The notes under the pieces were generated by a model. The model was given only the letters and a program-made list of their open reading frames with translations. It searched no databases and was not told the DNA's origin. A stretch of DNA of 51,205 bases, from positions 1 to 51,205 of the forward strand of contig JADGJG010000075.1 of the NCBI GenBank assembly GCA_027596195.1, given 5' to 3'. The stretch's first letter is position 1; the number at the start of each line of letters is the position of its first letter. A program made the position numbers and the translations under genes. The stretch is from Podochytrium sp. JEL0797 (taxonomy: Eukaryota > Chytridiomycota > Chytridiomycetes > Chytridiales > Chytriomycetaceae). Shown one piece after another: positions 29,267 to 51,205 of the stretch.

Positions 29267-29749
29267 TTTTGTCGGATGTTTTTTTGCGCGCTCCGTTGTA
29301 CGAGTTTCAGCGCTGTTCCTTTGGAAAGGGAAATCGAGAGAGGAAGAGGAAGGAGGGGGAGGGTGGCTGCACATGTTGTTTTGCCATTTTTTCAAAAGTC
29401 GCCGGGATCGCCTGGGATCGCCGACTTATGTAGATCTCGCGTCTCGCTGGCTTAAAATTCCCCCCCCCCCCCCCCCAGGTGCCTCCGTGCAAAAAACTCG
29501 ACAAATTCGACACGCGCCCCCCCGTTGCCGCCCTCCCACCCACAATTCCAGCACACTCCTCAAGCACTGGATCTTTAATTGCGAAAACTTCTACGTCCGA
29601 TAAGGTAACTTCAAAAGCAAGATCACGCGTTTGCATCCGCTGATCGTCTTGCCGCCCCATTTTTCACAGCTAATCGCCGTCAACGACTGTGATCACACGA
29701 AAACAACGTATCATCTCTAAGCAACTTCAGTTCAAAAGCAGGCTTCAAA
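29267..29749. promoter_or_regulatory. Divergent promoter region with 17-C tract
   Basis: The ~480 bases between the AIP-like start (leftward) and the TIR-chitin synthase start (rightward) should carry both promoters. A run of 17 C lies at 29460-29476, preceded by two GGGATCGCC words at 29404-29422. No coding segment was recognised. Base composition falls toward AT at the right end. Confidence 0.5.
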
Positions 29750-32700
29750 TGCACGTCGAGGTATGTGCTGAGATGGATATCCCCTGATCAACCTTTTTCC
29801 GCTGACCCAAGGGCACGCTGAATCAAAATTAATATTCAATTAGAATATTGAAGATGATGTCACTCCAACCAACTCAGAACCAGAGCTCAATGGGATTCCG
29901 ACAAGCTCAATCAAAAATCGCGAGGGTGGTGATCCCAACACTGAATTAGTTGATAAACCAAGTGTGCTTCAGACACAATCTGATGGCATTCCCACTCAGC
30001 TGGCTGCACAACAAGTGAATCGAAGTGCTTTCATTCCAGGCAGATTAAAACTCCAAATCCCGAAAAACTCGCCCAAATTGCCTTCAACATCAACAGCTTT
30101 GGTCATCAACTCAGTATCATCTCACCCTCTTAAGCCCTTTAATGAGTGCCAAGTATTTATCAGTTATTGCTGGAAAAACTCAAGATCGGCCCAGGCCAAC
30201 ATCAGCAATTGCAATTTTGGGGTGGACCCAATAGAAGTTGCAAATATGCTTAGAAAGAATGGCTGTGGTTGCTGGATTGATAAGGAACGCCTTACACCTG
30301 GCTCAACTACCTTCAAAGAAATTTCATCTGGCCTTGATAAAGGTGAGCACAAATCTGAGCCTGCGTGTTTGTAAAATCTGACATACAAGAACAGCAACAT
30401 TTGCTATCATGTTTGTAACAGATGAATACTTGGATTCAATAGATTGGTGAGCATGAATCATTTTCTCATTTAAAGTACAAACTAAAAATGAAATAGTATG
30501 AGGGAGAGCCATGTAATCATGAAAAATCTTCCATATCTGGTATGCCTGGTTGGAAGCACGTCTATAACTAAGAAAACGGAGTTTGAATTTAATTTTGGCC
30601 AACAAATTGTAAGTTGTGTTTTCCCATTCTGAATTAACACCTATTTTTTTATAGTATGTCAACCTTCAAAAGGAAATCAACCTACCTGATCAGGAGTTGA
30701 AAAAGATACTAAACGAAATTCAGCAACGCAGCATCAACCTGGAGAATGAAAATATAAGACACAATTTTATCCTTGGAGTGAAGCATGAAGATGGCAGAGA
30801 TGAAGCCAATGCCATCCTGCAGCCTGCCTCTTATGATTCAAGGAACAATCCGAAATCCTCAACTGCAAACTTACTATCAGCCTTCTCTGACTCCACTAGG
30901 AGTTTGTTCAACAAATTTCTTCCAAAATTGAGAAATCAAAACCTCAGAGAAGCAATTATCCATTTAGTGCAGAATGAAAGTACCCATGGAAAAATCGAAA
31001 TGGAAATACCTGTGTCATCAGAAGTCAGGAAAATCAGAAATGAAAAGATTGACTGTCCAGGAGAGGATGAAATTGGGTATTTGAAGTACACTGCAATAAC
31101 CTGTCCTCCCAAAGAATTTAATGGCAAGCATCAGCTTCATCAAACAAAAGATGGAAGGGATATTAAACTTGCTATTGCCATAACCTTGTAGGATGATCTG
31201 TTTTCATTTTTTAAGTAATACTAATACAAAAGAATAGATGCAATGAAGAAGACTTTGAATTCAGCAGAACATTTCATGCAATCATCAACAGCATTACATT
31301 TCTCTGCAACAAAAATGAGTTCAAGTGGGAAGAAATTGTGGTTGTTGTGATTTCAAATGGTCGTGCAGAGGTCAAACCAGATGTCCTCAAGCTCATGCAA
31401 GTCCTTGGAATTTATATTGATGGCCTGGCTCAAAGTGAAATCAATGGGCAAAAAATTCATGCAAACATGTATGAGTACACTTGCCAAATGAGCTATGATA
31501 TGCCATACCCTGTGATGTCAACTATGGATGTTTCTCATCAGACCACTGAGAAGGTCCCTTGTCAGACAATTTTAATACTTCCAGAGGACAATGGAAACAA
31601 TATTACTTCTCACAGTTGGTTTTTTGAAGCAATTTGCAAGCAGCTTAAACCTGAATTCTGTGTTCTCATTGATTCTGGGGCCAAGCCAACAGAGGAGTCA
31701 TTATTTCACTTACTCAAAGGTATGTTTTGTTCTTCTACATCAGTTTTTTGCTAATTTGTTCCACTGTGAAGAATTTCGCAATGAAGATGTTGGAGGAACC
31801 TATGGATCAATCATTGCTGCTGTGGATCCTTATTTGAAAGAAGACAAAAATTGGTTGCAGGTCTTAGCAAACAACTGGAACTTTAATCTGACCACACAAA
31901 AATATGAATATGCTATGGACAGCATGTTGAACAATCCATTCCAGTCTGTGTTTGGATTGAGGTTTGCCCTTCCTGGAACATTTACTGCATATAGATATGA
32001 TGCTCTGATTGGAGCTCCATTGGAATGCTACTTTGAAAGAAAAATGCCACAGAAACAAAGAGACATGAGAATCTATCTGTAAGAAAAAAATTTAATAATT
32101 TTTTCTAATACTGAAATAGAGGTGAGGACCGCATCCTTGGGTTTGAAATCTGCATGCAGCAAGGGAAGAAATGGCTCTTCAAGTATGCCAAGAATGCAAA
32201 AGCAGAAGCAAGTGTACCTCATGATTTCCATATCACTGTCTCCCAGCGTAGACGGTTCTTGAGTGGATCCTTTGCTGCTGCTGCATATGCTGTCACCAAT
32301 GTGGGAAGAATCTTCAGTACAAACCATACGAGAACTAGAAAAGCATGCCTTATGATTGAAATGATATTCAGTTTGATATCATTGATTTTCCAGTGGTTGA
32401 ATGTTGCAAACTGCTTTATAACTTATATGGCAAGTTAACCCCTCCCCCTTTTTTGTAATCTAACATCCATCACAGGTACTCAATGATGCCATAAGAACCT
32501 ACACTGACACCTCAAATTCTCCATTTTTAAGCCTATCTGTTTTCTACTTTGCCCTCATGTTTTTTTACTGCATAAGTTTTATCTTCATTCTTGGATTCTC
32601 TTTGCTTGGGCATGGCACAAGCAATTTCAAAAGATTGTTGGAATTTGGGAAATTCAGTTTCTCATCCATTGCTCTGTTCATGCTCATTATGGCTGTGTGG

Positions 32701-33565
32701 GCTGTAAACTACTCTTGGAATATGGGAGAGTCATTTGCAACTTGGGTTCTGCAGAATACCATTTTCCCATATATTGTGGTCACCATGGCAATCTCATTTT
32801 TTTCATTTCTTGTGAGTTCCTTCATGGAGATGGGAATATGGGATGCTATCTATGGAACTGTGCAATACCTGGTATTTTTACCTGTCTATATGAATGTGCA
32901 TGGAATTTATGCTGGTATGCCAAATTTCTTAAACCCTGCTATCAAAATGACTAAACTTTTGTTTTGTGCAGTTTCCACTCTCCATTTTACTGCACAAGGA
33001 AAAGATTCAGCAAAATCAGTAGCACAAAAACAATATCAGCCTGCAGAAATTGATTCAGCTTGGGATGAAGCAAAATTATCAGTTGATAACAGATGTGAAA
33101 AGGGGGGCAGGAATAAGAATGGCCACAATGAACACATTGGTAATATTGAATATGCTCAACTCAGTTCTCTAATCTTGGCTCTTGTGTGATAGATAATGAT
33201 TTGATCAACTTCAGAACAAAAGTAGTGCTGTACTGGATTGTTTCTAACATTGCTTTGGCATTCCTTGGCATTTTATTGGAGAAAAGCAATCCAACTGTAG
33301 TGGACGTGTAAGAATCTCAAGTTTCTCATGTTTACAAGTGGCTGAATTTTTCTTCAGATACCTCCCATTTCTATTCTGGTTTGTGACAGCCATGTCTCTT
33401 GTCAAATTTCTTGTATATACTGCTCTCAAAATCCAACTGAAATTGAGTATGGCCAAGGAGCGCCAAGTTGATCCAGAAAGGAATGAGAAAGAAGATAGAG
33501 CAAGCATATCAAGCACTCAAACAAACCAGAATGAGAAAATGGACAAACAGACAGCATTAAATTAG
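29750..33565 (+). CDS. TIR domain-chitin synthase fusion, 1097 aa
   Basis: Eleven predicted exons: 29750-29761, 29844-30342, 30395-30446, 30497-30608, 30655-31187, 31238-31719, 31772-32078, 32120-32429, 32476-33139, 33193-33307, 33358-33565. They sum to 3294 bases with every phase consistent; the intron after exon 8 is GC-AG. Residues ~106-240 form a TIR domain: CQVFISYCW, LRKNGCGCWIDKERLTPG, FKEISSGLDKATFAIMFVTD, then S185-IDC-MR-E191, where E191 sits at the usual NADase glutamate position. From ~390 a family-2 chitin synthase follows: ITLCNEEDFEFSRTFHAI, NMYEYTCQ, CVLIDSGAKP (D548), SVFGLRFALPGTFTAYRY, EDR (668-670), QRRRF (708-712), then ~7 membrane helices. The usual TrpĀ of QRRRW is Phe and DVGTKP is DSGAKP. 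It should sit in a plasma or vesicle membrane with both domains cytosolic. The 4-codon first exon is the weakest part. Confidence 0.85.
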
Positions 33566-34639
33566 AGAGGAATTTGGTAAAGAAATAAAAGCGAATTGCA
33601 AAGATTGATGTAAAAGAGGTGTGTGTCCCTGCCTGCATTGCAAAGATGGTGCTTCCTAGTGGAAAATTCATTTTTACCCATGACAAGTTCTTCCATGGGG
33701 ACCAGTTTGACATTGGGACATCAGCAATCTGCAAATGCAACAAAGATATGTCACAATGATAACAGTTGGGATGCTGAGGAGTGCAGACCATTTAGAAATT
33801 CCATATGCATTTAATCACCTCAAAACACCAATTTTTGGGTATTTTGGTGATTACTGTATCAGCAATCCAAAAAATTTTGCACGTGATGATCAACCTCACT
33901 CTTAAATATAAACACTATCTCCAGGAAGAGGAAACCAAGTAAAGGACTATCGAGAAACCTCCAATGAAAGCAACTCCTCTTGCACTTCACATAGACCATT
34001 TGGGGACTATCCATGCACATGGCATAATGTCTCATTATTTGCCCCTTCCCATACAACATACCACTCTCTCCTATTGTAGAAAGAATGCTTCCATCTCTTT
34101 GCTCTGTCTGCACATGCAGGTTGTTGTTAGAGAAGTTATTATGGTTGGTTTTTAGAATTTGAGACATACAAGGGAGAGAATCAGTCACTCCCACAAAATG
34201 CAAGTCTCCTTTATCTGGGAGGAGTTTCAGTTGCAGATCAGTACTCTTCTGTAAAAAGACTGTAATTATCCTTTTTTCTGTTGAAGTTTGATGTAGTTCT
34301 CTAGCAGTCAATTTCTTGGATTTCAGATCACAAAACTGTGTATTGGCTGTTTATGTTCCTGATATGGATGATGTAGTAACAGTTGTTAGTTTGAGTATCG
34401 TTTCGTCAAAAAAGTCTTTCATCAAAATCTATTTTTAACTTAACAAGGAAGGAAAGTGATTTTTTGGGAAATGACAGGTTTTACACAGCCTACTTCTTTT
34501 CAATTTGGGGAGGCCGGGGGCCTCCTGTTGGGTATATAACTGGGCAATCACTCACCCTCTCAGAAAGGGAAATTCATCGATCTGAATCGGATGCATTGTT
34601 TTGGTCGAGTTCACTCCCTGCCTTCCAGTTCACTCCCTG
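33566..34639. other. AT-rich region without a convincing gene
   Basis: About 1.07 kb following the TIR-chitin synthase stop. A 150-codon leftward frame (33859-34311) is open but resembles no family I know, has no splice support, and uses no distinctive motif. At ~34460 the composition shifts back toward GC. Just before the tandem unit, TTCACTCCCTGCC occurs twice (near 34609 and 34629). No terminal inverted repeat of a transposon was found. Confidence 0.45.
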
Positions 34640-35055
34640 CCATCCGCCACCCTCCACCCTCAATTCTTTTTTTTTCAAAAATGTTTCGCCACTGACTGAC
34701 CACCAACTGCCACCAACCTCCAAAGAGGATCCCTCCTATGACCACCACCAACGCCCAGCTCGCGAAAACTTCCGTTCTTGTTTCTAATATTATTTTTTTT
34801 CGTTCGTCATCTTTATTTCATCAAAAGGGTGAGCAGACTGCCCCACTGGGCTCGTATTTATCTGGCTTGCACCAAGAGGATGATGGTTTGGCACTCTGTC
34901 AATTATGTCGCCATTTAGGACGTATAATACTCTATTTTGGTTCACGCGGGATAACGACGAGACGATTGCGTGGCTGGCGGGGAAAATCGTCGGGAAATCA
35001 GCGGGAAATCAGACAAAATCGGTCATCACTCCCTGCCGCCCCACCCCACCTCCAA

Positions 35056-35877
35056 ATGAACACCCTCCCCTCCGAACTCCTAATCCTCATCACCTCCTTC
35101 CTCCACCCCCACCATGCAATGACCCTCAGCCTCACCACCCGCCGATTCGCATTCATCACATTCGATCGCCATTCCGCAATCTCCCATCTGCGTCTCATTC
35201 ATGTTGACTCAACCGATATCGAGGTGTCCGCCCTCAACCGCAACTACGCAATCGCTTTTATTGTGTGTTATGGATTCACAAAGTCCATCGAGAGGGTCGG
35301 AACCCGCATGATTCCGTTGCTCCGAATTGCGCTGCAGCATCCGTTGTGTGACCCCGCTGCGGATGATAACGCACTCATCAAATACGCAGCTTACAACGGA
35401 AACGCTCAACTCACATCCTTACTGCTACGCCATCCGAAAGTCGATCCCTCTGCCGACGACAACTTTGCCATCCGACAAGCCTCACGACTGGGCCACGCCG
35501 ACGTCGTGGCGTTACTGCTGCGGCACCCGCAGGTGGACCCCGCGGCCTTCAACAACTATGCGATTCGGCTGGCCTGTCATAAGGGACATGCGCGGGTGGT
35601 GAAGGTGTTGTTGGAGTCGAGAAGGGTGCAGCCGGGGGTGAATGGGAGTTGGCCGTTACGGACAGCTTCTTATAGGGGGTATGGGGAGATTGTGGGGATG
35701 TTGTTAGAGTCAGGGATGGTGGATCCTGGGGCGAGGGTTGCGGCTGCGCAGGTGGGGGGTTTTAGCGTGGATGTGGGGGAACTTGAGAAGGGGGGAGGAA
35801 AGCGACTTTTGGAGCGAGTGAGGAATACATTCGATCGTATCAAACAAGTGTTTAGGAAAAGGATGAGCGTGATATAA
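35056..35877 (+). CDS. F-box-like/ankyrin-repeat protein, copy 1
   Basis: Start chosen at MNTLPSELLILITSFL (273 aa) because an F-box-like helix pair (LPSELLILITSFLHPHHAMT) normally lies near the N-terminus. The frame is open further upstream to an ATG at 34738, which would give 379 aa with a Ser/Arg-rich extension. Ankyrin-type repeats follow: DDNALIKYAAYNGNAQLTSL, DDNFAIRQASRLGHADVVAL, FNNYAIRLACHKGHARVVKV and GSWPLRTASYRGYGEIVGML, each ~33 residues with LLLRHPxVDP turns. This is the common fungal F-box-ankyrin layout, a possible substrate receptor of an SCF ubiquitin ligase. The C-terminus is basic. Its promoter spans the left breakpoint of the duplication. Confidence 0.8.
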   Translation: MNTLPSELLILITSFLHPHHAMTLSLTTRRFAFITFDRHSAISHLRLIHVDSTDIEVSALNRNYAIAFIVCYGFTKSIERVGTRMIPLLRIALQHPLCDPAADDNALIKYAAYNGNAQLTSLLLRHPKVDPSADDNFAIRQASRLGHADVVALLLRHPQVDPAAFNNYAIRLACHKGHARVVKVLLESRRVQPGVNGSWPLRTASYRGYGEIVGMLLESGMVDPGARVAAAQVGGFSVDVGELEKGGGKRLLERVRNTFDRIKQVFRKRMSVI

Positions 35878-36020
35878 AGTAAAGAATATGTTTTCGGACG
35901 GAATTGACTCGGAAGTGGACGGAAGTGGAAATCTCTGCGACCCTTGCGCCGAAATTGTCACTCGTTTTTCCCTCTCGAAACCGCTGACGTCTCTCCAGAT
36001 TCCACTTTCAAAAGAAGAGA

Positions 36021-38184
36021 ATGAGCAAGGGTCTAGAGAAACCCGACTATGCCACCAAGCCCATGGGCATCAACAACAAGCGCAAGTGTCACGACGTCAT
36101 CTTTCTCGTCCTATTCCTCGTCTTTTGGTGTGGAATGTGGATTGTGGCCAATACGGCGATCAAGTATGGGAATCCAGCGTGGTTGTTGTGAGTATCCAAG
36201 GCGCTTTCATTGCTTTGATCGCTTCGTATTCCCAGTCTGATCGCGTTTTTTGTACAGACTTCCCATCGACTACCACGGCAACCGATGCGGAACTGACGTC
36301 ACTTTCAATGGAGTCAACTTACTGAACCTGCCGTACTTGTACTACACGAACCCGGTCTCGCCCACGGCATTTCCTTCCGTCTGTGTCGCGTCATGTCCAA
36401 CCGCTACAGTCTCCCCATCCTCTTCCTTCTACATCTGTGACTACGGCGTGAATCCATACGCGGGAGGACAAAGTCTGTCTTCCCTATCATCTGATTTCAC
36501 GTGCGCTGCAATCATTATCAAGTCGCAAGAAATTGCTGGGCGGTGTATTCCCAACGACACCAGCATTGCGTTTTCGTCAAAATCGCTGACCACCGCATCC
36601 AACACATTGCAAACTGTGATTCAGGACGTGGAAAAATGTTGGCCGCTTTACATTGGGGCCGTGTTTCTGTCCTTGATTTTATCGTTCGTCTGGTGCTACT
36701 TCCTGCGGATCGCAGCCAAACCCATGGTCTGGACGACCGTCATTCTCGTGAATATACTGCTTGGGGGTATTTCACTGTTCTGCTACTACTTTTGGAAACA
36801 AAAGGAATATTTATTTTTCGAGTCGACTGTCCCCGGACACGACGCGACGCCCGTGGTGTGGGAATACCAGACGGCCCGAGCCGGATGTTTCCTGTTTGCC
36901 GCGTTGTTTGTGATTTGTGTGTTGTTGACGATTTTCATGATCAAAAAGATAAGGATTGCGTGTGAAGTTTTGAAGGAGGCTTCGACGGCGATTGGGAAGA
37001 TGCCTATTATTAGTTGAGTTTTAAATTTTTTTCTTTGTTGGCATATAGCTAAACGCGCTTGGTGGGTTGCAGTATTTTTCCCTTTGCTCCTCTGGCTTGC
37101 CTCCGTCATCCTGCTACTGTATTTCATCTACATCCTCCTCTACATTGTCAGTATCAACACGAGCGTGACCCTCTCCGCCTTCAACGTGTCCATGACGCAA
37201 ACCCAAGTGAACTACCTCCTCATCTACCACCTGTTTGGCTTCTTCTGGTGCTACGCCTTCTTCCAAGGCTTCAACCAGGTCACCATTGCGGGAGGATTCG
37301 CGACTTACTACTGGACCATGGACAAGTCGCAAATGCCGCCGCATCCCGTCGCAAAGTCCATGTGGCGAACGGCGAGGTACCACCTCGGATCGATTGCTCT
37401 CGGAGCTTTCTTGATTGCCATTGTGCAGACGTTGAGATGTGTCATGTTGTTGTTCAAGAGGTTGGCCAAGAAGAGTAAGCTCAAGTTTTTGATTCCCTTG
37501 ATCAATTGCTGTCAGTGCTACCTTGCGTTGTTGGAGAGACTTGTGAAGTGGATCAACAAGAATGGATACATTATGATTGCGATTGAAGGCAAAGCGTTTT
37601 GTGCGAGTTGCGGGGTTTGTGTTTTTGTTTCGTGTTTTTTTTTGGCTGGTTTCATTCCTGACGAAATAGTTCCCCATCGAAAAAATTAGTCGGCATTGGC
37701 TCTCATCATCCGCAACGGTCTCAAACTCGTTGCCGTCGACCTCGTTGGTGACATGATCATCTTCATTTCCAAGCTCTGCATCACAGCCATGGTCGTGCTC
37801 ATCTTTTACTTCTTCATCAACTGGCAATCCACGTTAATCACCATCAACTTTATTTACGTTCCTCTCGCGGTGATTGGAATTATTGGGCTGTTTGTGTCGT
37901 CCGGGTTCATGAGTGTGTATCACTTGGGAATTGATACCATCTTCATGAGCTTTTTGGAGGATTCCGAGAGAAATGATGGGTCTCCGGAAAGACCTTATTA
38001 CATGTCTGATGCACTCAAGAACATTATGCATGTCAGCAACAAGATGAGAGTTGAGTGCCGTCGTTTTCGTTTTCTGTTGAATCGTTTTATCCTGATTCTT
38101 TTTTCTTTTGATTTGAATATTCAGGAGGAAGATGCAAAGAAGAAGACGAAGCGTGTGGAGCCCATGGCGATGGAGGAGTATTGA
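36021..38184 (+). CDS. SLC44/choline-transporter-like (CTL/Pns1) protein, copy 1
   Basis: Five predicted exons: 36021-36187, 36258-37012, 37073-37614, 37690-38049, 38125-38184 (627 aa). The CTL family pattern is clear: a first membrane helix (VIFLVLFLVFWCGMWIVA), an extracellular loop beginning DYHGNRCG with several Cys, then about nine more helices (LYIGAVFLSLILSFVWCYFL, LLLWLASVILLLYFIYILLY). The conserved core GFNQVTIAGGFATYYW and RYHLGSIALGAFLIAIVQ follow, then IAIEGKAFCAS and a C-terminal helix bundle. CTL proteins move choline or ethanolamine across plasma or organelle membranes. The cytosolic tail is short and Lys-rich. The exon 2-3 donor (GTTGAG) is weak but needed for frame. Confidence 0.9.
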
Positions 38185-38323
38185 GGGGATGGTTCGAGAG
38201 AGTACGCGTTTTTTTTCACCCCCTGCAGCAATGTACAGTTTTTCCTTCAGTAAGAATAGAATAGATCAAATCGGATAGCACGTTTATTCTCGCTCTCTGA
38301 GTTTTTTCCACCCTCGGACAGAA

Positions 38324-41300
38324 ATGCTCGCGCAAACACAAATGGCGCAAACACGCACACTGACACCAAACCCTGGCGAGGCCGACGCGATAATAACTGA
38401 GGAAGAGTCCTACGGCCTTGTTTCGTTCTTTGCGGCCAAAGAGACGCTTGCGCTGATTGACGAAGTCGTCGCTGCGGCCAACGAGTCGCTTGCCTTGCTG
38501 AAGACTGGGACCACCCCGGATTCGGATCTGACGGAGCGAATGCGGCGCGTGGGATTGACGACGCTGCCGCAGCTGCTCGAGCGCTACCAGGAGTGAGTGT
38601 TTATTTCGCCTAGACTCTCCCTCGGAAACGCCAGGGAAGCCTTGCACACTCCCTAGGAAACAAAACCTAACACCCCCTAGACAGCCCACACTTCTCGACG
38701 CGCACCTCGAGGCTCTTGTCGATGCCCTCGCGCAGCCACTCCGCACTGCGATGGCTGGTGGCGCCGCGCACTCCTCCGCTTCGTGCGAAGTTCTCGGGGT
38801 CCTTTTCCACCTCGTTTATTTTCTGTGCAAAGTGCGTGGCGCAAAGACGGTCGTGCGCTTTCTTCCGCACGAGGCTGCCGACCTCGAACCCACCCTGCAC
38901 CAACTCAAAGCAACGCCGCATTCCTCGGCGCTGTGGGCCTCGCGCTACGTTTTGCTGCTGTGGCTGTCGCTGGTCGTCATCACGCCCTTTGACCTGTGCA
39001 AGATTGATTCGACCCTAGGCGGTTCTTCTTTTGACCCAAACGCGATCACCAATCAGCCCAACCTCGTCGACTCCCTGATTGACCAGGCAAAACACTTCTT
39101 GTCCTCGACCGGCAAGGAATACGAAGGCGCCGCGATGCTTCTGACGCGTTTGTTGACGAGGCAAGTTGTGCCCAGTTCTCTTGCCAAGTCGAAACTCGAA
39201 ATAGTAAACGGCATTCTCGAATCATAGACGCGATATTGTCGACTCCCATCTGCCCCCGTTCCTCTCTTGGTGCATCCACGAAGCCTCCCTGCTACACTCC
39301 GACCCCCTCCCCATGTCCTCATTCCGCCTCCGCGGAATCCTATACACCCTCTGCACGCTCTACAAACTGGGCCCACGAACCCTCCTGTTGCCGACATTGT
39401 CCGAAATCACACCCCTCTGCTCAACCGTGGCGGAAGGATCGATTGCGCAAACGAATTCATTGATTCGCAAATTGATTGTGAAACTCACGCAGCGCGTTGG
39501 ATTGTGTTTTTTGAAACCCAAGGTGGCCAAGTGGAGGTATCAGCGTGGGAGTCGGTCTCTTGCTGCGAATTTGGGCAAATCATCGGCCGGCACGCGGGCT
39601 GTTGCGGCTGCTGCTACTGCTGCGATGGACGAAGACGACGAAGATGAAACCGAAATCCCAGAAGAGATTGAAGAAATCGTGCACAGTTTATTGAACGGTC
39701 TCCGCGACAAGGACACGATCGTGCGTTGGTCTGCGGCCAAAGGCGTGGGCCGCATTTCGGCGCGGTTACCACAGGAATTCGCCACCGAGATTGTGGCGAG
39801 CGTGATTGCCCTGTTTGAAGAAGATACCCTCCCGCCCTCCGTTCCCGGGTCGACGGTTCCGAATCTGGCGGCCGTTTCGGACTCCACGTGGCATGGCGCT
39901 TGTTTGGCGGTGGCCGAGTTGGCGAGGAGGGGTTTGTTGATGCCGGAATGGCTTGAGAAGGTGGTTCCCTGGATTTCCCTCGCGCTGCTGTTTGACATGA
40001 AACGAGGGTCTCATTCGATCGGCGCGCATGTGCGGGATGCCGGGAATTACGTGTGCTGGTCGTTTTTCCGCGCATATGACCCCGTGTTGTTGCTGCCGCA
40101 TGTGCAGACGCTGTCGAGACGCTTGATTGTATCGGCCACGTTGGATCGCGAAGTGAATGTGCGGCGCGCTGCGTCTGCGGCGTTTCAGGAGGGAGTCGGG
40201 CGGTTGGGTGGATCCGGGGAGTGTGGGGCGATTGCGAATGGGATTGAGGTGGTGACGATTGCGGATTATTTTAGTGTTGGGAATCGCGTGGGGTCTGTGT
40301 TGGAGGTGGCTGTGACTTTGGCGGGGTTCGTTTTTGGTCTTCTTGTTTTCGGTTTTTAGAGAAGCCTCATTCGCTGATTCCACGCTCTTTTCTCATACAG
40401 ATACAAAGAGTACCGCTCTGGAATTATTTCGCACGTTGCTGAAGTCATGACATGTCACTGGGACAAGACCATCCGCGTGTTGGCGTCACAAGCCCTCTAT
40501 AAACTCACTTTCATTGATTTGAACTTGGTGTTGACGACCGTGTTGCCCGAGCTGGTGAGATTTGATTGTGGGATTTCGGTTTGTCAGTCTAATTTTGGTT
40601 TATGCACTTTGCAGATCCTCAAAGCCAATTCGTTCGATCTGGCCGTGCGCCATGGCTCCTGTTTGGCCATTGCTGAGATTTGTTTGGCGTGGTCTCAAAT
40701 CCGCAACGGGAGTCCCTCTACGGACGCGTCGACTTCTACAGAGCCACCGCTCGCGGCAACCTGGTGGACCGAAGAAGAAAACGAACGGTTTATTAAGGTA
40801 AACCTCCATTATAACCGGAAACCTTGTCCTCAACACATCCAAATACCAGCCCATCACAAACATCATCCCCACGTTCCCCCAATCCACACTCGACACATTC
40901 GGCGGCGACCTCACACGCATCGCACTCTGCCACCTCGTCGCGTGCCTCTCCACATCCAACTGGCCCTCCACCTACCGTCTCGACCCTTCGAAAGGATATG
41001 ACGCGTTCCTCGCGACCTGGTGGAAACTCGTGCATTCAACGCTTGAGCATCGCGAGGAGGGTGTGCAGGAGTATGGTGCGCGTGCTTGTGCCGCGTTGGC
41101 GGGGTATTGTTGGCCATGCACTGGCGATGCAGGAAACGCGCAGTTGTTGGAGGACTTGGTGAATACAATATGCACCAAGATTGCAATCGCGGAATCTTCT
41201 GCGGTAGTTATCCCCGGTGCGAGTCGCAGGGGAATGGTGGATCGGTTCCCGAGGAGGGGGTACGCGCTTGCGGTGGGGATGTTGCCGCAAGGTGTTGTGC

Positions 41301-42690
41301 GGGTGTTTGCGGGGCGGTTGGTGAAGGGTTTAGTGGGGTTGGTTGGGGCGGTGGTGCAAGGGGGTGGGGAAGAGGCGGAGGGGAGGAGGAATGGGGTTGC
41401 GGCGTTGGTGGGGGTGTATGTGGGGTTGGGTGTGGAAGGGATTTTGAGAGGTAAAAAAGTCAACTGGATTATTCGTGTCTCCCGTGAAGTTAAAATTTTT
41501 TTTCGCAGTGATTCCGCGGGATCTGTTTAGCGAATCCTTGCAAGCCTTGTTCATCGGCATGGAAGACTATAGCATCGATTCCCGTGGAGATGTTGGCTCA
41601 TGGGTCCGTGAATCGTGTTTCAAAGCCTGGCCCGTCCTCATCCCCTTATTCGACCGCGTCAACCACACACTCACACAAACCCAACAAATGTACCTCCACC
41701 CCGAAACCTGCGCACGCGCCGTCAAATCCCTCATACGACAATCGGTCGAAAAAATCGACCGCGTGAGGGAAGCTGCTGGGATCGCGTTACGCGCTGTATT
41801 GGATCTTAAAGGTGTGGATTTTGGAATCAGTGTGGAGGCGAGGGAAGCGGTTGCGGTCGCCGTGTCCGGGGACGTGAATTGGTTGAATACGGCGCAAGTG
41901 TATCCACGCATGGTGCCGCTTTTGCGGTTTAGCGAGTTTCGGGATGATTTGTTGGTCGGGTTGGTTGTGAGTGTGGGTGGGATGAGTGAGAGTTTGGTCA
42001 AGTTTAGTACGTTGAGTTTTGTTGCGTTTGTGAATGCGTTGGCTGGGGTGGAAGGGGAAGGGCTGACAGTGCAGAAATTCGTGCGCGATTTCACGAGCGT
42101 GTTTGCGAAACCGGCGGGGATTCGGGACAGGATTTCAGTGAGTTTGATTGAGGTGACGGATGTTTTGGTTGGGTGTGGGGCTGTGGCGCGGGTGTTGGAG
42201 GCGCCGCAAGGACTGAAAGAAGTGGAAGGGTTGTTTGATGCGGTCAAGAAGGAGGTGGTGAGGTGTAAGGATGTCAAGAAGGTGTTGGCGGCGATCAAAG
42301 TGTGAGTTCATTCTTTTTCTATTGTTTCGATAGACATGGGAATTAACGCGTTGCTGAGTTAGGTTTACTGGGTTCGCCACTCTATCCGGGGAAGCAGCCA
42401 CCAACGTCCGCAACAAAGCCTTGACCCAGCTCGTCGTCTACCTGACGCACACGTTCCCACGCGTGCGTCGCGCCACGTCGGAGGGTCTTTACATTGCATT
42501 AACAACTTGCGGGGACGAGGAACAAGCCGCGTATGAGGAATCTATCGATCAGATGGAGGACATTTTGCTAGCCACGAATTGGGATGAACCCGTCGCGCAA
42601 TTGAAGGACGCGAGGGCGAAAATGGCGGGGTGGTTGGGTGTGAAGCTTCCTGTTGTTGTAAAGAAAGCGGTGGCGTTGGCTGTACAATAA
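38324..42690 (+). CDS. TBCD: Tubulin-folding cofactor D (TBCD), copy 1
   Basis: Eight predicted exons: 38324-38592, 38681-39160, 39228-40325, 40401-40554, 40615-40797, 40850-41450, 41509-42301, 42363-42690; 3906 bases, 1301 aa. The second intron uses a GC donor (ACGAG|GCAAGT). TBCD hallmarks are RDKDTIVRWSAAKGVGRI, a HEAT-repeat run with DREVNVRRAASAAFQE, EDYSIDSRGDVGSWVRE, and the C-terminal GFATLSGEAATNVRNKA followed by FPRVRRATSEGLY. TBCD holds beta-tubulin and, with cofactors C and E, releases alpha/beta dimers; it also acts at centrioles and basal bodies. An acidic stretch (MDEDDEDETEIPEEIEE) precedes the middle HEAT block. AATAAA overlaps the stop codon. Confidence 0.93.
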
Positions 42691-43347
42691 ATAAATGTTG
42701 GCCGTGTGTCCGAAACTTGTTCGAAACCGCATCTCCGCCAAATCCCTCTTCCACCAAAAATCCAGAAAGTTCACGTTCAAACAACGCAAATTTATTCAGA
42801 TCCGGGAATCACGTGGTTATGATAGTATCCAGCCAAATAAGACAAAACTACTGCGTATGCCAGAATTACAAACCATACATACTGTATTTTTTGAAGAAGA
42901 AGCGCGTTTCGGAATTGTCAGATATGCAAATCCATCCGCCACCCTCCACCCTCAATTCTTTTTTTTTCAAAAATGTTTCGCCACTGACTGACCACCAACT
43001 GCCACCAACCTCCAAAGAGGATCCCTCCTATGACCACCACCAACGCCCAGCTCGCGAAAACTTCCGTTCTTGTTTCTAATATTATTTTTTTTCGTTCGTC
43101 ATCTTTATTTCATCAAAAGGGTGAGCAGACTGCCCCACTGGGCTCGTATTTATCTGGCTTGCACCAAGAGGATGATGGTTTGGCACTCTGTCAATTATGT
43201 CGCCATTTAGGACGTATAATACTCTATTTTGGTTCACGCGGGATAACGACGAGACGATTGCGTGGCTGGCGGGGAAAATCGTCGGGAAATCAGCGGGAAA
43301 TCAGACAAAATCGGTCATCACTCCCTGCCGCCCCACCCCACCTCCAA

Positions 43348-44169
43348 ATGAACACCCTCCCCTCCGAACTCCTAATCCTCATCACCTCCTTCCTCCACCC
43401 CCACCATGCAATGACCCTCAGCCTCACCACCCGCCGATTCGCATTCATCACATTCGATCGCCATTCCGCAATCTCCCATCTGCGTCTCATTCATGTTGAC
43501 TCAACCGATATCGAGGTGTCCGCCCTCAACCGCAACTACGCAATCGCTTTTATTGTGTGTTATGGATTCACAAAGTCCATCGAGAGGGTCGGAACCCGCA
43601 TGATTCCGTTGCTCCGAATTGCGCTGCAGCATCCGTTGTGTGACCCCGCTGCGGATGATAACGCACTCATCAAATACGCAGCTTACAACGGAAACGCTCA
43701 ACTCACATCCTTACTGCTACGCCATCCGAAAGTCGATCCCTCTGCCGACGACAACTTTGCCATCCGACAAGCCTCACGACTGGGCCACGCCGACGTCGTG
43801 GCGTTACTGCTGCGGCACCCGCAGGTGGACCCCGCGGCCTTCAACAACTATGCGATTCGGCTGGCCTGTCATAAGGGACATGCGCGGGTGGTGAAGGTGT
43901 TGTTGGAGTCGAGAAGGGTGCAGCCGGGGGTGAATGGGAGTTGGCCGTTACGGACAGCTTCTTATAGGGGGTATGGGGAGATTGTGGGGATGTTGTTAGA
44001 GTCAGGGATGGTGGATCCTGGGGCGAGGGTTGCGGCTGCGCAGGTGGGGGGTTTTAGCGTGGATGTGGGGGAACTTGAGAAGGGGGGAGGAAAGCGACTT
44101 TTGGAGCGAGTGAGGAATACATTCGATCGTATCAAACAAGTGTTTAGGAAAAGGATGAGCGTGATATAA
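43348..44169 (+). CDS. F-box-like/ankyrin-repeat protein, copy 2
   Basis: The protein is identical to copy 1 over all 273 residues (and over the longer 379-residue reading from 43030), and I saw no nucleotide change in the surrounding ~1.5 kb. What differs is the upstream context. From 42931 leftward the sequence is the 3' flank of TBCD copy 1 rather than the AT-rich region that precedes copy 1, so the two copies may be expressed differently. The stop is followed by the same short spacer to the SLC44-like gene. Confidence 0.8.
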   Translation: MNTLPSELLILITSFLHPHHAMTLSLTTRRFAFITFDRHSAISHLRLIHVDSTDIEVSALNRNYAIAFIVCYGFTKSIERVGTRMIPLLRIALQHPLCDPAADDNALIKYAAYNGNAQLTSLLLRHPKVDPSADDNFAIRQASRLGHADVVALLLRHPQVDPAAFNNYAIRLACHKGHARVVKVLLESRRVQPGVNGSWPLRTASYRGYGEIVGMLLESGMVDPGARVAAAQVGGFSVDVGELEKGGGKRLLERVRNTFDRIKQVFRKRMSVI

Positions 44170-44312
44170 AGTAAAGAATATGTTTTCGGACGGAATTGAC
44201 TCGGAAGTGGACGGAAGTGGAAATCTCTGCGACCCTTGCGCCGAAATTGTCACTCGTTTTTCCCTCTCGAAACCGCTGACGTCTCTCCAGATTCCACTTT
44301 CAAAAGAAGAGA

Positions 44313-46475
44313 ATGAGCAAGGGTCTAGAGAAACCCGACTATGCCACCAAGCCCATGGGCATCAACAACAAGCGCAAGTGTCACGACGTCATCTTTCTCG
44401 TCCTATTCCTCGTCTTTTGGTGTGGAATGTGGATTGTGGCCAATACGGCGATCAAGTATGGGAATCCAGCGTGGTTGTTGTGAGTATCCAAGGCGCTTTC
44501 ATTGCTTTGATCGCTTCGTATTCCCAATCTGATCGCGTTTTTTGTACAGACTTCCCATCGACTACCACGGCAACCGATGCGGAACTGACGTCACTTTCAA
44601 TGGAGTCAACTTACTGAACCTGCCGTACTTGTACTACACGAACCCGGTCTCGCCCACGACATTTCCTTCCGTCTGTGTCGCGTCATGTCCAACCGCTACA
44701 GTCTCCCCATCCTCTTCCTTCTACATCTGCGACTACGGCGTGAATCCATACGCGGGAGGACAAAGTCTGTCTTCCCTATCATCTGATTTCACGTGCGCTG
44801 CAATCATTATCAAGTCGCAAGAAATTGCTGGGCGGTGTATTCCCAACGACACCAGCATTGCGTTTTCGTCAAAATCGCTGACCACCGCATCCAACACATT
44901 GCAAACTGTGATTCAGGACGTGGAAAAATGTTGGCCGCTTTACATTGGGGCCGTGTTTCTGTCCTTGATTTTATCGTTCGTCTGGTGCTACTTCCTGCGG
45001 ATCGCAGCCAAACCCATGGTCTGGACGACCGTCATTCTCGTGAATATACTGCTTGGGGGTATTTCACTGTTCTGCTACTACTTTTGGAAACAAAAGGAAT
45101 ATTTATTGTTCGAGTCGACTGTCCCCGGACACGACGCGACGCCCGTGGAGTGGGAATACCAGACGGCCCGAGCCGGATGTTTCCTGTTTGCCGCGTTGTT
45201 TGTGATTTGTGTGTTGTTGACGATTTTCATGATCAAAAAGATAAGGATTGCGTGTGAAGTTTTGAAGGAGGCTTCGACGGCGATTGGGAAGATGCCTATT
45301 ATTAGTTGAGTTTTAAATTTTTTCTTTGTTGGCATATAGCTAAACGCGCGTGGTGGGTTGCAGTATTTTTCCCTTTGCTCCTCTGGCTTGCCTCCGTCAT
45401 CCTGCTACTGTATTTCATCTACATCCTCCTCTACATTGTCAGTATCAACACGAGCGTGACCCTCTCCGCCTTCAACGTGTCCATGACGCAAACCCAAGTG
45501 AACTACCTCCTCATCTACCACCTGTTTGGCTTCTTCTGGTGCTACGCCTTCTTCCAAGGCTTCAACCAGGTCACCATTGCGGGAGGATTCGCGACTTACT
45601 ACTGGACCATGGACAAGTCGCAAATGCCGCCGCATCCCGTCGCAAAGTCCATGTGGCGAACGGCGAGGTACCACCTCGGATCGATTGCTCTCGGAGCTTT
45701 CTTGATTGCCATTGTGCAGACGTTGAGATGTGTCATGTTGTTGTTCAAGAGGTTGGCCAAGAAGAGTAAGCTCAAGTTTTTGATTCCCTTGATCAATTGC
45801 TGTCAGTGCTACCTTGCGTTGTTGGAGAGACTTGTGAAGTGGATCAACAAGAATGGATACATTATGATTGCGATTGAAGGCAAAGCGTTTTGTGCGAGTT
45901 GCGGGGTTTGTGTTTTTGTTTCGTGTTTTTTTTTGGCTGGTTTCATTCCTGACGAAATAGTTCCCCATCGAAAAAATTAGTCGGCATTGGCTCTCATCAT
46001 CCGCAACGGTCTCAAACTCGTTGCCGTCGACCTCGTTGGTGACATGATCATCTTCATTTCCAAGCTCTGCATCACAGCCATGGTCGTGCTCATCTTTTAC
46101 TTCTTCATCAACTGGCAATCCACGTTAATCACCATCAACTTTATTTACGTTCCTCTCGCGGTGATTGGAATTATTGGGCTGTTTGTGTCGTCCGGGTTCA
46201 TGAGTGTGTATCACTTGGGAATTGATACCATCTTCATGAGCTTTTTGGAGGATTCCGAGAGAAATGATGGGTCTCCGGAAAGACCTTATTACATGTCTGA
46301 TGCACTCAAGAACATTATGCATGTCAGCAACAAGATGAGAGTTGAGTGCCGTCGTTTTCGTTTTCTGTTGAATCGTTTTATCCTGATTCTTTTTTCTTTT
46401 GATTTGAATATTAAGGAGGAAGATGCAAAGAAGAAGACGAAGCGTGTGGAGCCCATGGCGATGGAGGAGTATTGA
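44313..46475 (+). CDS. SLC44/choline-transporter-like protein, copy 2
   Basis: Predicted exons 44313-44479, 44550-45304, 45364-45905, 45981-46340, 46416-46475; 627 aa. Three amino-acid differences from copy 1 were seen: Ala to Thr in SPTxFPS, Phe to Leu in EYLxFES, and Val to Glu in ATPVxWEY. One T is missing in the second intron. The last acceptor is changed from TTCAG to TTAAG but is still AG, so splicing could continue. The frame is intact throughout, which favours a functional second copy. Confidence 0.9.
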
Positions 46476-46612
46476 GGGGATGGTTCGAGAGAGTACGCGT
46501 TTTTTTTCACCCCCTGCAGCAATGTACAGTTTTTCCTTCAGTAAGAATAGAATAGATCAAATCGGAGAGTACGTTTATTCTCGCTGGCGCACTTTTCCAC
46601 CCTCGGACAGAA

Positions 46613-49600
46613 ATGCTCGCGCAAACACAAATGGCGCAAACACGCACACTGGCACCAAACCCTGGCGAGGCCGACGCGATAATAACTGAGGAAGAGTCCG
46701 ACGGCCTTGTTTCGTTCTTTGCGGCCAAAGAGACGCTTGCGCTGATTGACGAAGTCGTCGCTGCGGCCAACGAGTCGCTTGCCTTGCTGAAGACTGGGAC
46801 CACCCCGGATTCGGATCTGACGGAGCGAATGCGGCGCGTGGGATTGACGACGCTGCCGCAGCTGCTCGAGCGCTACCAGGAGTGAGTGTTTATTTCGCCT
46901 AGACTCTCCCTCGGAAGCCTTGCTCACTCCCTAGGAAACAAAACCTAACACCCCCTAGACAGCCCACACTTCTCGACGCGCACCTCGAGGCTCTTGTCGA
47001 TGCCCTCGCGCAGCCACTCCGCACTGCGATGGCTGGCGGCGCCGCGCACTCCTCCGCTTCGTGCGAAGTTCTCGGGGTCCTTTTCCACCTCGTTTATTTT
47101 CTGTGCAAAGTGCGCGGCGCAAAGACGGTCGTGCGCTTTCTTCCGCACGAGGCTGCCGACCTCGAACCCACCCTGCACCAACTCAAAGCAACCCCGCATT
47201 CCTCCGCGCTGTGGGCCTCGCGCTACGTTTTGCTGCTGTGGCTGTCGCTGGTCGTCATCACGCCCTTTGACCTGTGCAAGATTGATTCGACCCTGGGCGG
47301 TTCTTCTGTTGACCCAAACGCGATCACCAATCAGCCCAACCTCGTCGACTCCCTGATTGACCAGGCGAAACACTTCTTGTCCTCGACGGGCAAGGAATAC
47401 GAAGGCGCCGCGATGCTTCTGACGCGTTTGTTGACGAGGCAAGTTGTGCCCAGTTCTCTTGCCAGTCGAAATTCGAAATAGTAAACCGTATTCTCGAACC
47501 ATAGACGCGACATTGTCGACACCCACCTCCCCCCATTCCTCACATGGTGCATCCACGAAGCCTCCCTACTGCACTCCGACCCCCTCCCCATGTCCTCCTT
47601 TCGCCTCCGCGGAATCATATACACCCTCTGCACGCTCTACAAACTGGGCCCGCGAAACCTCCTGTTGCCCACATTGTCCGAAATCACACCCCTCTGCACA
47701 ACCGTGGCGGAAGGATCGATTGCGCAAACGAATTCATTGATTCGCAAATTGATTGCGAAACTCACGCAACGCGTCGGATTGTGTTTTTTGAAACCCAAGG
47801 TGGCCAAGTGGAGGTATCAGCGTGGGAGTCGGTCTCTTGCTGCGAATTTGGGCAAATCATCGGCCGGCACGCGGGCTGTTGCGGCTGCTGCTACTGTTGC
47901 CATGGACGAAGACGACGAAGACGAAACCGAAATCCCGGAAGAAATCGAAGAAATCGTGCACAGTTTATTGAACGGTCTCCGCGACAAGGACACGATCGTG
48001 CGTTGGTCTGCGGCCAAAGGCGTGGGCCGCATTTCAGCGCGGCTGCCGCAGGAATTCGCCACCGAGATTGTGGCGAGTGTGATTGCCCTGTTTGAAGAAG
48101 ATACCCTCCCGCCCTCCGCTCCCGGGTCGACGGTTCCGAATCTGGCGGCCGTTTCGGACTCCACGTGGCATGGCGCTTGTTTGGCGGTGGCCGAGTTGGC
48201 GAGGAGGGGATTGTTGATGCCGGAATGGCTCGAGAAGGTCGTTCCCTGGATTTCTCTCGCTCTGCTGTTTGACATGAAACGAGGCTCCCATTCAATCGGC
48301 GCGCATGTGCGGGATGCGGGGAATTACGTATGCTGGTCGTTTTTCCGCGCATATGACCCCGTGTTGTTGCTGCCGCATGTGCAGACGCTGTCGAGACGCT
48401 TGATTGTATCGGCCACGTTGGATCGCGAAGTGAATGTGCGGCGCGCTGCGTCTGCGGCGTTTCAGGAGGGAGTCGGGCGGTTGGGTGGATCCGGGGAGTG
48501 TGGTGCGATTGCGAATGGGATTGAGGTGGTGACGATTGCTGATTATTTTAGTGTTGGGAATCGCGTGGGGTCTGTGTTGGAGGTGGCTGTGACTTTGGCG
48601 GGGTTCGTTTTTTGTTTTTTTGTTTTCGGGTTTTTAGAGAAGCCTCATTCGCTGATTCCACGCTCTTTTCTCATACAGATACAAAGAGTACCGCTCTGGA
48701 ATTATTTCGCACGTTGCCGAAGTCATGACATGTCACTGGGACAAGACCATCCGCGTGTTGGCGTCGCAAGCCCTCTATAAACTCACGTTCATTGATTTGA
48801 ACTTGGTGTTGACGACCGTGTTGCCCGAGCTGGTGAGATTTGATTGTGGGATTTCGGTTTGTCAGTCTAATTTTGGTTTATGCACTTTGCAGATCCTCAA
48901 AGCCAATTCGTTCGATCTGGCCGTGCGCCATGGCTCCTGTTTGGCCATTGCTGAGATTTGTTTGGCGTGGTCTCAAATCCGCTACGGGAGTCCCGCCACG
49001 GACGCGTCGACTTCTACAGAGCCACCGCTCGCGGCAACCTGGTGGACCGAAGAAGAAAACGAACGGTTTATCAAGGTAAACCTCCATTATAACCGGAAAC
49101 CTTGTCCTCAACCCATCCAAATACCAGCCCATCACAAACATCATCCCCACGTTCCCCCAATCCACCCTCGACACATTCGGCGGCGACCTCACACGCATCG
49201 CACTCTGCCACCTCGTCGCGTGCCTCTCGACAGCCAACTGGCCCTCGACCTACCGTCTCGACCCTTCGAAAGGATACGACGTGTTCCTCGCGACCTGGTG
49301 GAAACTCGTGCATTCAACGCTTGAGCATCGCGAGGAGGGTGTGCAGGAGTATGGTGCGCGAGCTTGTGCCGCGTTGGCGGGGTATTGTTGGCCATGCACT
49401 GGCGATGCAGGAAACGCGCAGTTTTTGGAGGACTTCGTGAATACAATATGCACCAAGATTGCAATCGCGGAATCTTCTGCGGTAGTTATCCCCGGTGCGA
49501 GTCGCAGGGGAATGGTGGATCGGTTCCCGAGGAGGGGGTACGCGCTTGCGGTGGGGATGTTGCCGCAAGGTGTTGTGCGGGTGTTTGCGGGGAGGTTGGT

Positions 49601-50963
49601 GAAGGGTTTAGTGGGGTTGGTTGGGGCGGTGGTGCAAGGGGGTGGGGGGGAGGCGGAGGGGAGGAGAAATGGGGTTGCGGCGTTGGTGGGGGTGTATGCG
49701 GGGTTGGGTGTGGAAGGGATTTTGAGAGGTAAAAAAGTCAACTGGATAATTCGTGTCTTCCGTGAGTTAAAATTTTTTGGCAGTGATTCCGCGGGATCTG
49801 TTTACCGAATCCTTGCAAGCCTTGTTCATCGGCATGGAAGACTATAGCATCGATTCCCGTGGAGACGTTGGCTCATGGATCCGTGAATCGTGTTTCAAAG
49901 CCTGGCCCGTCCTCATCCCCTTATTCGACCGCGTCAACCACACACTCACACAAACCCAACAAATGTACCTCCACCCCGAAACCTGCGCACGCGCCGTCAA
50001 ATCCCTCATACGACAATCCGTCGAAAAAATCGACCGCGTGAGGGAAGCTGCTGGGATCGCGTTACGCGCTGTGTTGGATCTTGAAGGTGTGGATTTGGGG
50101 ATCAGTGTGGAGGCGAGGGAAGCGGTTGAGGTGGCTGTGGCGGGGGATGTGAATTGGTTGAATACGGCTGAAGTGTATCCACGCATGGTTCCGCTTTTGC
50201 GGTTTAGCGAGTTTCGGGATGATTTGTTGGTCGGGTTGGTTGTGAGTGTGGGGGGGATGAGTGAGAGTTTGGTCAAGTTTAGTACGTTGAGTTTTGTTGC
50301 GTTTGTGAATGGGTTGTCGGGGGAGGAAGGGGAGGGGTTGACGGTGCAGCGGTTTTTGCGCGATTTTACGAGCGTGTTTGCGAAACCGGCGGGGATTCGG
50401 GACAGGATTTCAGTGAGTTTGATTGAGGTGACGGATGTTTTGGTTGGGTGCGGAGCTGTGGCGCGGGTGTTGGAGGCGCCGCAAGGACTGAAAGAAGTGG
50501 AAGGATTGTTTGATGCGGTCAAGAAGGAGGTGGTGAGGTGTAAGGATGTCAAGAAGGTGTTGGCGGCGATCAAAGTGTGAGTTGCACTTTTTTTTATATT
50601 GTTTCGCTTGGGGAATTTACGCGTTGCTGTGTTAGGTTTACCGGGTTCGCCACTCTATCCGGGGAAGCAGCCACCAACGTTCGTAGCAAAGCCTTGACCC
50701 AGCTCGTAGTTTACCTGACGCACACGTTCCCACGCGTGCGTCGCGCCACGTCGGAGGGTCTTTACATTGCACTAACGACGTGTGGGGACGAGGAACAAGC
50801 CGGGTATGAGGAATTTATCGATCAGATGGAGGACATTTTGCTCGCCACGAATTGGGATGAACCCGTCGCGCAATTGAAGGACGCGAGGGCGAAAATGGCG
50901 GGGTGGTTGGGTGTGAAGCTTCCTGTTGTTGTAAAGAAAGCGGTGGCGTTGGCTGTACAATAA
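46613..50963 (+). CDS. TBCD: Tubulin-folding cofactor D (TBCD), copy 2
   Basis: Predicted exons 46613-46881, 46959-47438, 47505-48602, 48679-48832, 48893-49075, 49128-49728, 49784-50576, 50636-50963. Every exon has the same length as in copy 1 (total 3906 bases). I counted about 34 amino-acid differences out of 1301, mostly conservative, clustered in exon 3 start and exon 7 (for example NALAGVEGEG against NGLSGEEGEG, and LKGVDFG against LEGVDLG). The GC donor of intron 2 is conserved. Indels are confined to introns (intron 2, intron 3 and intron 6), the pattern expected if both copies are under purifying selection. Confidence 0.93.
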
Positions 50964-51205
50964 ATAAATGTTGGCCGTGTGTCCGAAACTTGTTCGAAAC
51001 CGCATCTCCGCCAAATTCCCTCTTCCACCAAAAATCCAGAAAGTTCACGTTCAAACAACGCAAATTTATTCAGATCCGGGAATCACGTGGTTATGATAGT
51101 ATCCAGCCAAATAAGACAAAACTACTGCGTATGCCAGAATTACAAACCATACATACTGTATTTTTTGAAGAAGAAGCGCGTTTCGGAATTGTCAGATATG
51201 CAAAT

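Follow-up and report, generated by a model that had tools for sequence, protein, structure and literature searches.

Myosin-chitin synthases keep their catalytic motifs, and in the integrated decoys of plant NLRs an immune module carries the degenerate version of some cellular protein. The catalytic domain of chitin synthases (CHSs) faces the cytosol, and the enzymes dimerize, as stated in excerpts of two reports (PMC9556331, PMC10409773). For TIR domains, a source cited here in part names both the catalytic-position Glu and a Trp four residues before it (Glu-4) as ligand-binding in SARM1, and states that this Glu is present in >70% of TIRs and is not necessarily tied to activity (PMC7075850). 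For chytrids, a passage of one survey reports no NLR hits (PMC4986451), and NLRs with TIR are mentioned for Chytridiomycota in an excerpt of a later paper (PMC9815663); part of a further source counts Podochytrium species among the diatom parasites (PMC10643281).

Here, the window, i.e., the whole 51,205-nt stretch of DNA analyzed from contig JADGJG010000075.1 of Podochytrium sp. JEL0797, encodes at 29749–33565 on the (+) strand one protein of 1078 aa, whose twelve exons give a stop-free spliced frame, with a TIR domain at residues ~101–247 and a division-1 CHS at 333–1078. The initial annotation had proposed an in-frame TIR-chitin synthase fusion, undescribed as far as it knew. We confirmed the fusion by splicing, by Pfam on the 1078-aa protein, and by the exon that both halves share, and we found no description of a counterpart in the literature searched, which was covered mostly by title and with most subscription journals outside coverage; likewise, "TIR" is not mentioned in the main text of a CHS review and of two CHS classification papers. 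The overall architecture is well supported and comprises the following features.

29749..29760, (+): exon 1, with the MHVE start; the weakest exon of the splice model, with no homolog seen
29844..30342, (+): exon 2, N-terminal region (aa 5–100) and first half of the TIR (VFISYCW, CWIDKERL)
30395..30446, (+): exon 3, a 52-nt TIR microexon (ATFAIMFVTDEYLDSID), equal in length and flanking phases (1, 2) to that of the C29 TIR-Sel1 gene
30497..30608, (+): exon 4, TIR with CMRE (Glu191)
30655..31187, (+): exon 5, the fusion exon, with the end of TIR homology (~aa 247, from the C29 alignment), a linker, and Chitin_synth_1N at 333–394 (Pfam)
31238..31719, (+): exon 6, Chitin_synth_1 with CNEED, SNGR, PEDNGNNITSHSW, and DSGAKP
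31772..32078, (+): exon 7, GT domain with EFRNEDVGGTYGSI, QKYEY, and ALPGT
32120..32429, (+): exon 8, GEDR, QRRRF, and the first membrane helix, followed by the GC-AG intron
32476..32914, (+): exon 9, membrane region
32915..32971, (+): intron inside what was initially annotated as exon 9, with counterparts in paralogs C900 and C417a
32972..33139, (+): exon 10, site of the lost SWG motif (AQG 923–925)
33193..33307, (+): exon 11, membrane helix
33358..33565, (+): exon 12, last membrane helix, tail, and stop
29760..34640 (edges approximate), no strand: AT-rich, CpG-depleted island of ~4.9 kb, covering the gene and ~1 kb downstream

The introns range from 41 to 83 nt, and all splice junctions are GT-AG except those of intron 8 (32430–32475), which starts with gcaagt and is of the GC-AG type. 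The initial annotation placed the start at 29750, which we corrected to 29749, and counted eleven exons; its open frame and splicing stood, but the count rose to twelve, as its exon 9 contains the 57-nt in-frame intron at 32915–32971. This intron has no in-frame stop, and once it is taken out, the loop that follows the membrane helices aligns again. It is supported by the CHS paralogs C900 and C417a, which, by eye, carry a counterpart at the same codon and in the same phase. After the start in exon 1, the next in-frame Met is residue 139, within the TIR domain.

We found that the C29 TIR-Sel1 gene of the same genome aligns with residues 101–247 at 53/152 identical positions (35%; E 3e-25), and that this alignment passes the exon 4/5 splice, which has phase 0 in both genes, into exon 5. 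Within exon 5, no in-frame Met precedes residue 341 (residues 226–340). Since the end of the TIR and the CHS N-terminal domain are both in exon 5, two adjacent genes are unlikely. Transcripts ending between exons 4 and 5, which the initial annotation had raised as the case against a fusion, are also judged improbable from the homology that crosses the splice and the Met-free stretch before residue 341. Specifically, introns 2–4 are identical in position and phase (1, 2, 0) to those of the C29 gene, including the 52-nt microexon, and introns 5–9 (phases 2, 1, 2, 0, 1) match in place and phase, by eye, those of CHS paralog C417a, which carries one further intron absent from the fusion gene. Because both sets of introns are matched within the same genome, they argue for a native fusion with its junction inside exon 5. 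Judged by homology and intron positions, the fusion joins two gene types of its own genome within one exon, and we regard it as a clear case of such an event.

Next, the CHS half was found to contain three Pfam domains above cut-off, namely Chitin_synth_1N (333–394), Chitin_synth_1 (404–565; 3.8e-45), and Chitin_synth_2 (602–776), and a simple hydropathy scan gave six membrane helices rather than the "seven or so" previously noted. The designation of a complete chitin synthase therefore held for the domains, all of which are present, but not for the catalytic motifs, which are extensively altered. The genome has 11 other Chitin_synth_1 genes, and of the 127 columns that do not vary among them, 51 are changed in the fusion; when each of these paralogs was left out in turn, 0 to 12 columns deviated, although the tblastn-anchored alignment reads through introns, which inflates the count for C417b (12) and some paralog motif cells. 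In an alignment with 107 fungal CHSs, the fusion differs at 92 of the 192 columns in which these reach at least 95% conservation (median for the 107, 1; maximum, 19, in a protein annotated as partial), where the 107 are the remainder of 120 listed proteins after 13 under 700 aa were dropped, and gaps in other sequences were not counted as deviations. All members of this set are closely related to a single canonical CHS, and two come from the genome of the fusion itself, so that the set is biased toward conserved enzymes.

The changes affect TMYNE (TLCNE in the fusion), DGR (NGR), DVGT (DSGA), ACGEI (TYGSI), KEKNAKKINSHRW (PEDNGNNITSHSW), VLPGA (ALPGT), and QRRRW (QRRRF), and the lysines of the KEKNAKK loop are lost. 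The motifs kept are EDR (GEDR 667–670), Q..EY (QKYEY 606–610), LPG, the Asp of DVGT/DSG, and the Q and R of QRRR. Asn443 replaces the DGR aspartate, and QRRRF (708–712) lacks the Trp, each of which is found in 107/107 of the others; W712F keeps an aromatic ring. In place of SWG, phmmer aligned AQG (923–925), and MAFFT put the Trp column outside the fusion protein, so that there is no Trp either way. In PsChs1, mutating the DGR aspartate, the DVGT aspartate, or the SWG Trp abolished activity, which was also greatly impaired when Ala replaced the VLPGA Val or the QRKRW Trp, as given in an excerpt of the report (PMC9556331). In yeast Chs1, V673S, W760A, and W969A disrupt function, and K578A, which lies in the loop whose lysines the fusion CHS has lost, has only a moderate effect, as stated in part of the source (PMC10409773). 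Among the VLPGA, QRKRW, DGR, and SWG sites, only the Val-to-Ala change in VLPGA equals a mutation tested in PsChs1. From the loss of sites whose mutation abolished or impaired these two enzymes, we infer strong catalytic impairment of the fusion CHS; residual nucleotide-sugar binding and a weak or altered glycosyltransferase activity are possible, as EDR, Q..EY, and the Q and arginines of QRRR are retained.

In the CHS tree, the terminal branch of the fusion CHS measured 1.52 (next longest, 0.61), and its grouping with the C417 genes is no more than suggestive, as the 11 paralogs in the tree were anchored on the fusion gene and other chytrids probably have C417-type genes that the tree lacks. 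Despite this branch, there are no stops or frameshifts across the 1078 codons. Within residues 395–790, CGN codons encode 5/9 of the arginines that are conserved in paralogs and 0/7 elsewhere (Fisher p 0.034; a small test with a modest p value), which is a weak sign that the active-site arginines are under selection. To our knowledge, this is the first candidate chitin-synthase pseudo-enzyme; the literature found to pair chitin synthase with pseudoenzyme concerns, by title, a different enzyme.

Since the CHS catalytic domain is cytosolic and CHSs dimerize, the N-terminal TIR would be cytosolic and near its twin. Our main reading, to which we assign a probability of about 45%, is that the CHS half is an impaired pseudo-enzyme that anchors, dimerizes, or senses for the TIR, with a signal triggered by clustering. 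Specifically, the catalytically impaired CHS half would hold the TIR at the cytosolic face of the membrane where the wall is made and would dimerize with itself or with real CHSs; wall damage, CHS inhibition, or loss of partners would gather the TIRs, which would signal stress or cell death through scaffolding or by cleaving NAD+, and the fusion would work like an integrated-decoy or guard receptor. We infer the sensing, the clustering, and the output alike. A narrower version, in which a degenerate CHS-TIR among real CHSs would detect that the machinery of wall building is under attack (from damage, inhibitors, or a parasite) and its TIR would launch a cell-death or stress response, is rather unlikely as it stands; if true, it would mean a cell-wall-machinery immune receptor outside the NLR class. 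Against the main reading, the two halves could have been joined in a single genome without functional meaning.

The initial annotation had suggested that the TIR could gate wall synthesis. The fusion on which this idea rests holds, but gating of a complete synthase is weakened by the lost DGR Asp, SWG Trp, QRRRW Trp, and VLPGA Val. A related explanation, that the protein is a divergent working synthase of chitin or a related product whose location or activity is set by TIR self-association, with the TIR acting like MIT or myosin-head modules, is consistent with the retained EDR, Q..EY, QRRR, and DSG Asp and with the six membrane helices, as well as with the N-terminal accessory domains known on CHSs (part of PMC9556331 and the CHS review) and the merely moderate effect of K578A in yeast Chs1 (excerpt of PMC10409773). 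We nevertheless consider it unlikely, though deserving of some weight, because it lacks the DGR Asp and the SWG Trp, each of which abolished PsChs1 when mutated, and because the Val-to-Ala change in VLPGA and the Trp-to-Phe change in QRRRW fall on sites where Ala greatly impaired that enzyme (excerpt of PMC9556331); the lost KEKNAKK lysines and the changes in 92/192 conserved columns add to this.

As for the TIR half, the TIR-like N-terminus noted initially was borne out by a TIR profile search, in which Pfam TIR_2 matched residues 135–242 of the 1078-aa protein (2.1e-10) with 41.6 bits, above its cut-off of 28, and the second TIR model, PF01582, did not reach its cut-off of 21.3, with a score of 17.0 on a 1097-aa version of the protein. 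For structure matching, a profile built from four TIRs of the Podochytrium sp. JEL0797 genome matched 20 distinct PDB sequences with E-values no higher than 0.01, mostly partially, with Cat1 first (5e-7), followed by the ADP-ribosyl cyclase 7xoz, Roq1, and RPP1, and with Toll-like receptor 1 among the weakest. The four aligned TIRs share thirteen invariant columns, including Glu191 (E90 of the aligned piece), which lies within SxxCxRE at the position of the catalytic Glu of TIR NADases, as had been proposed. At Glu-4, the fusion has Asp187 and the three other TIRs have Asn, i.e., none has the Trp found there in Cat1, Roq1, and 7xoz in the alignments shown. NADase activity of the fusion TIR is thus possible, but Glu191 alone is insufficient for such a claim, given that Glu occurs in >70% of TIRs without necessary activity and that Asp187 occupies the -4 position.

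These data bear on a further explanation, in which the protein would be a membrane-anchored TIR NADase with the CHS as a mere anchor, and activation would deplete NAD+ or make a cyclic ADP-ribose signal. The presence of Glu191 in SxxCxRE, its conservation in the four aligned TIRs, and the profile matches to Cat1, RPP1, and Roq1 point in this direction. We regard this explanation as improbable, since Glu-4 is Asp187 (Asn in the other three) and not the ligand-contact Trp of the SARM1 type, and since the Glu is common, too, among TIRs for which no activity is reported (part of PMC7075850).

The genome holds a set of TIR genes, including L051 (C29), L011/L053 (C275), and L001 (C177), some with ankyrin and Sel1 repeats. 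TIR_2 matched 13 times in the genome, plus two more places on C29, and this chytrid TIR repertoire may be undescribed. PF13851, which we take to be a flagellar family, is present in the genome over its cut-off.

Searches of a protein database of 5.8 billion sequences gave no match at E 0.001 for the whole fusion protein (5680 candidates) or for its CHS region (1775 candidates), negatives that speak against close relatives only, as the search needs shared exact 5-residue words; the positive control, the canonical CHS (C900) of the same genome, gave 6649 matches among 8000 scored candidates. Over residues 150–560 of the query, C900 is 100% identical to a CHS recorded for Podochytrium sp. JEL0797 (Chytridiomycota, Chytridiales, Chytriomycetaceae). 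In the precomputed domain annotation, the TIR Pfam domain occurred in none of the 120 matches listed of these 6649 CHS relatives. Within 1.5 kb upstream of the Chitin_synth_1 match, no TIR was found in the 11 CHS paralogs (best E 0.99) with a model built partly from the fusion's own TIR, whose match to the fusion is therefore no independent control. The full protein had no Pfam match at E 0.001 to NB-ARC/NACHT or to myosin head and DEK domains, and tRNA and Rfam scans of the window returned nothing. A viral origin was dropped, as a search with the CHS domain found no relative among viral contigs and phage records.

Further analysis revealed that the gene lies in the CpG-depleted island listed above, where the GC content is ~0.38 vs ~0.5, and the CpG observed/expected ratio is 0.18 vs 1.08 in the rest of the window (genome otherwise near 1.0). 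The dinucleotide distance of the island is 0.19, vs 0.016 to 0.073 in 36 control stretches of the window. Across 1964 overlapping 500-bp windows from 69 other genome loci (some overlapping), the minimum ratio was 0.37, and island windows reach 0.0; no comparable depletion was found among the other CHS, TIR, or methylase loci sampled. The depletion sets in close to the start codon, is less marked across the TIR part, and also covers the noncoding tail. Pieces of this tail recur on five other contigs with single CpG differences that run both ways. We considered local methylation with CpG decay, and transfer from a CpG-poor relative, e.g., another chytrid, as causes of the island. DNA_methylase matches over the cut-off number four, on four contigs of the genome. 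Of 12 reverse-transcriptase loci (from 16 matches), only L070 and L071 (C119) are moderately CpG-depleted (lowest 500-bp ratio 0.37; 0.63 is the lowest among the other ten), and thus no general mechanism of methylation and CpG decay is shown. The shared introns and the grouping with the C417 genes favor chytrid ancestry, which would be compatible with transfer from another chytrid.

From near the end of the island to the end of the contig, the window contains an 8.3-kb tandem duplication (34640–42931 and 42932–51205) that is 97.8% identical. Equal-scoring matches spaced 7 to 9 kb from each other on one contig were also seen for the pairs L051/L052 (C29), L064/L065 (C404), and L070/L071 (C119); these resemble the tandem copy in the window and would mean either that tandem duplication is frequent or that the assembly has placed two haplotypes one after the other.

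The strong CHS divergence, the CpG-depleted island, the single copy found, and the lack of a relative in the protein database searches would suit a decaying or non-functional relic, i.e., a fusion heading to a pseudogene with no selected role. This explanation appears quite improbable, considering that 1078 codons in 12 exons show no stop or frameshift and that the splice sites are intact at a branch of 1.5 substitutions per site. An assembly or annotation artifact, whether two neighboring genes or foreign DNA in a chimeric contig, is highly improbable in spite of a composition unlike both flanks, the lack of a close relative, and the tandem near-copies of long segments adjoining the gene, because TIR homology and Chitin_synth_1N lie within one exon, the introns are common to genes on other contigs, the downstream part of the island has pieces on five other contigs, and the CHS groups with C417 genes.

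A pseudo-enzyme CHS half that anchors and clusters a TIR, our preferred reading, would bear on how early-branching fungi sense attack. The combination of a TIR with a degenerate CHS suggests that wall synthesis may be under guard, and offers a single gene in which to study this.

Compared with known systems, the fusion resembles division-1 fungal CHSs (ScChs1, CaChs2, and the C417 paralogs) in its CS1N-CS1-CS2 domains, EDR, Q..EY, and six-helix membrane region, and shares five intron positions with paralog C417a; unlike them, it has an N-terminal TIR, and its TMYNE, DGR, KEKNAKK, DVGT, VLPGA, QRRRW, and SWG motifs are altered. The myosin-CHSs (classes V/VII) and the oomycete MIT-CHS likewise carry an unrelated N-terminal module on a CHS, but their modules are tied to trafficking, and PsChs1, with its MIT domain, is active (excerpt of PMC9556331). 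With the TIR immune proteins, the fusion has in common the Glu at the catalytic position (plant TIR-NLRs, Cat1, and SARM1) and the profile match (plant TIR-NLRs and Cat1), and it differs from them in its CHS partner and in having no NB-ARC, receptor repeats, or Glu-4 Trp. Like the integrated decoys of plant NLRs, it combines an immune module with a degenerate cellular protein, a likeness drawn from sequence only and with no NLR in the fusion. Finally, the ANK-TIR-Sel1 (C275) and TIR-Sel1 (C29) genes have the same type of TIR, marked by SxxCxRE and by an insertion ahead of the first helix, and C29 also has introns 2–4; in these genes, the partner of the TIR is a set of soluble repeats, whereas in the fusion it is a membrane glycosyltransferase.
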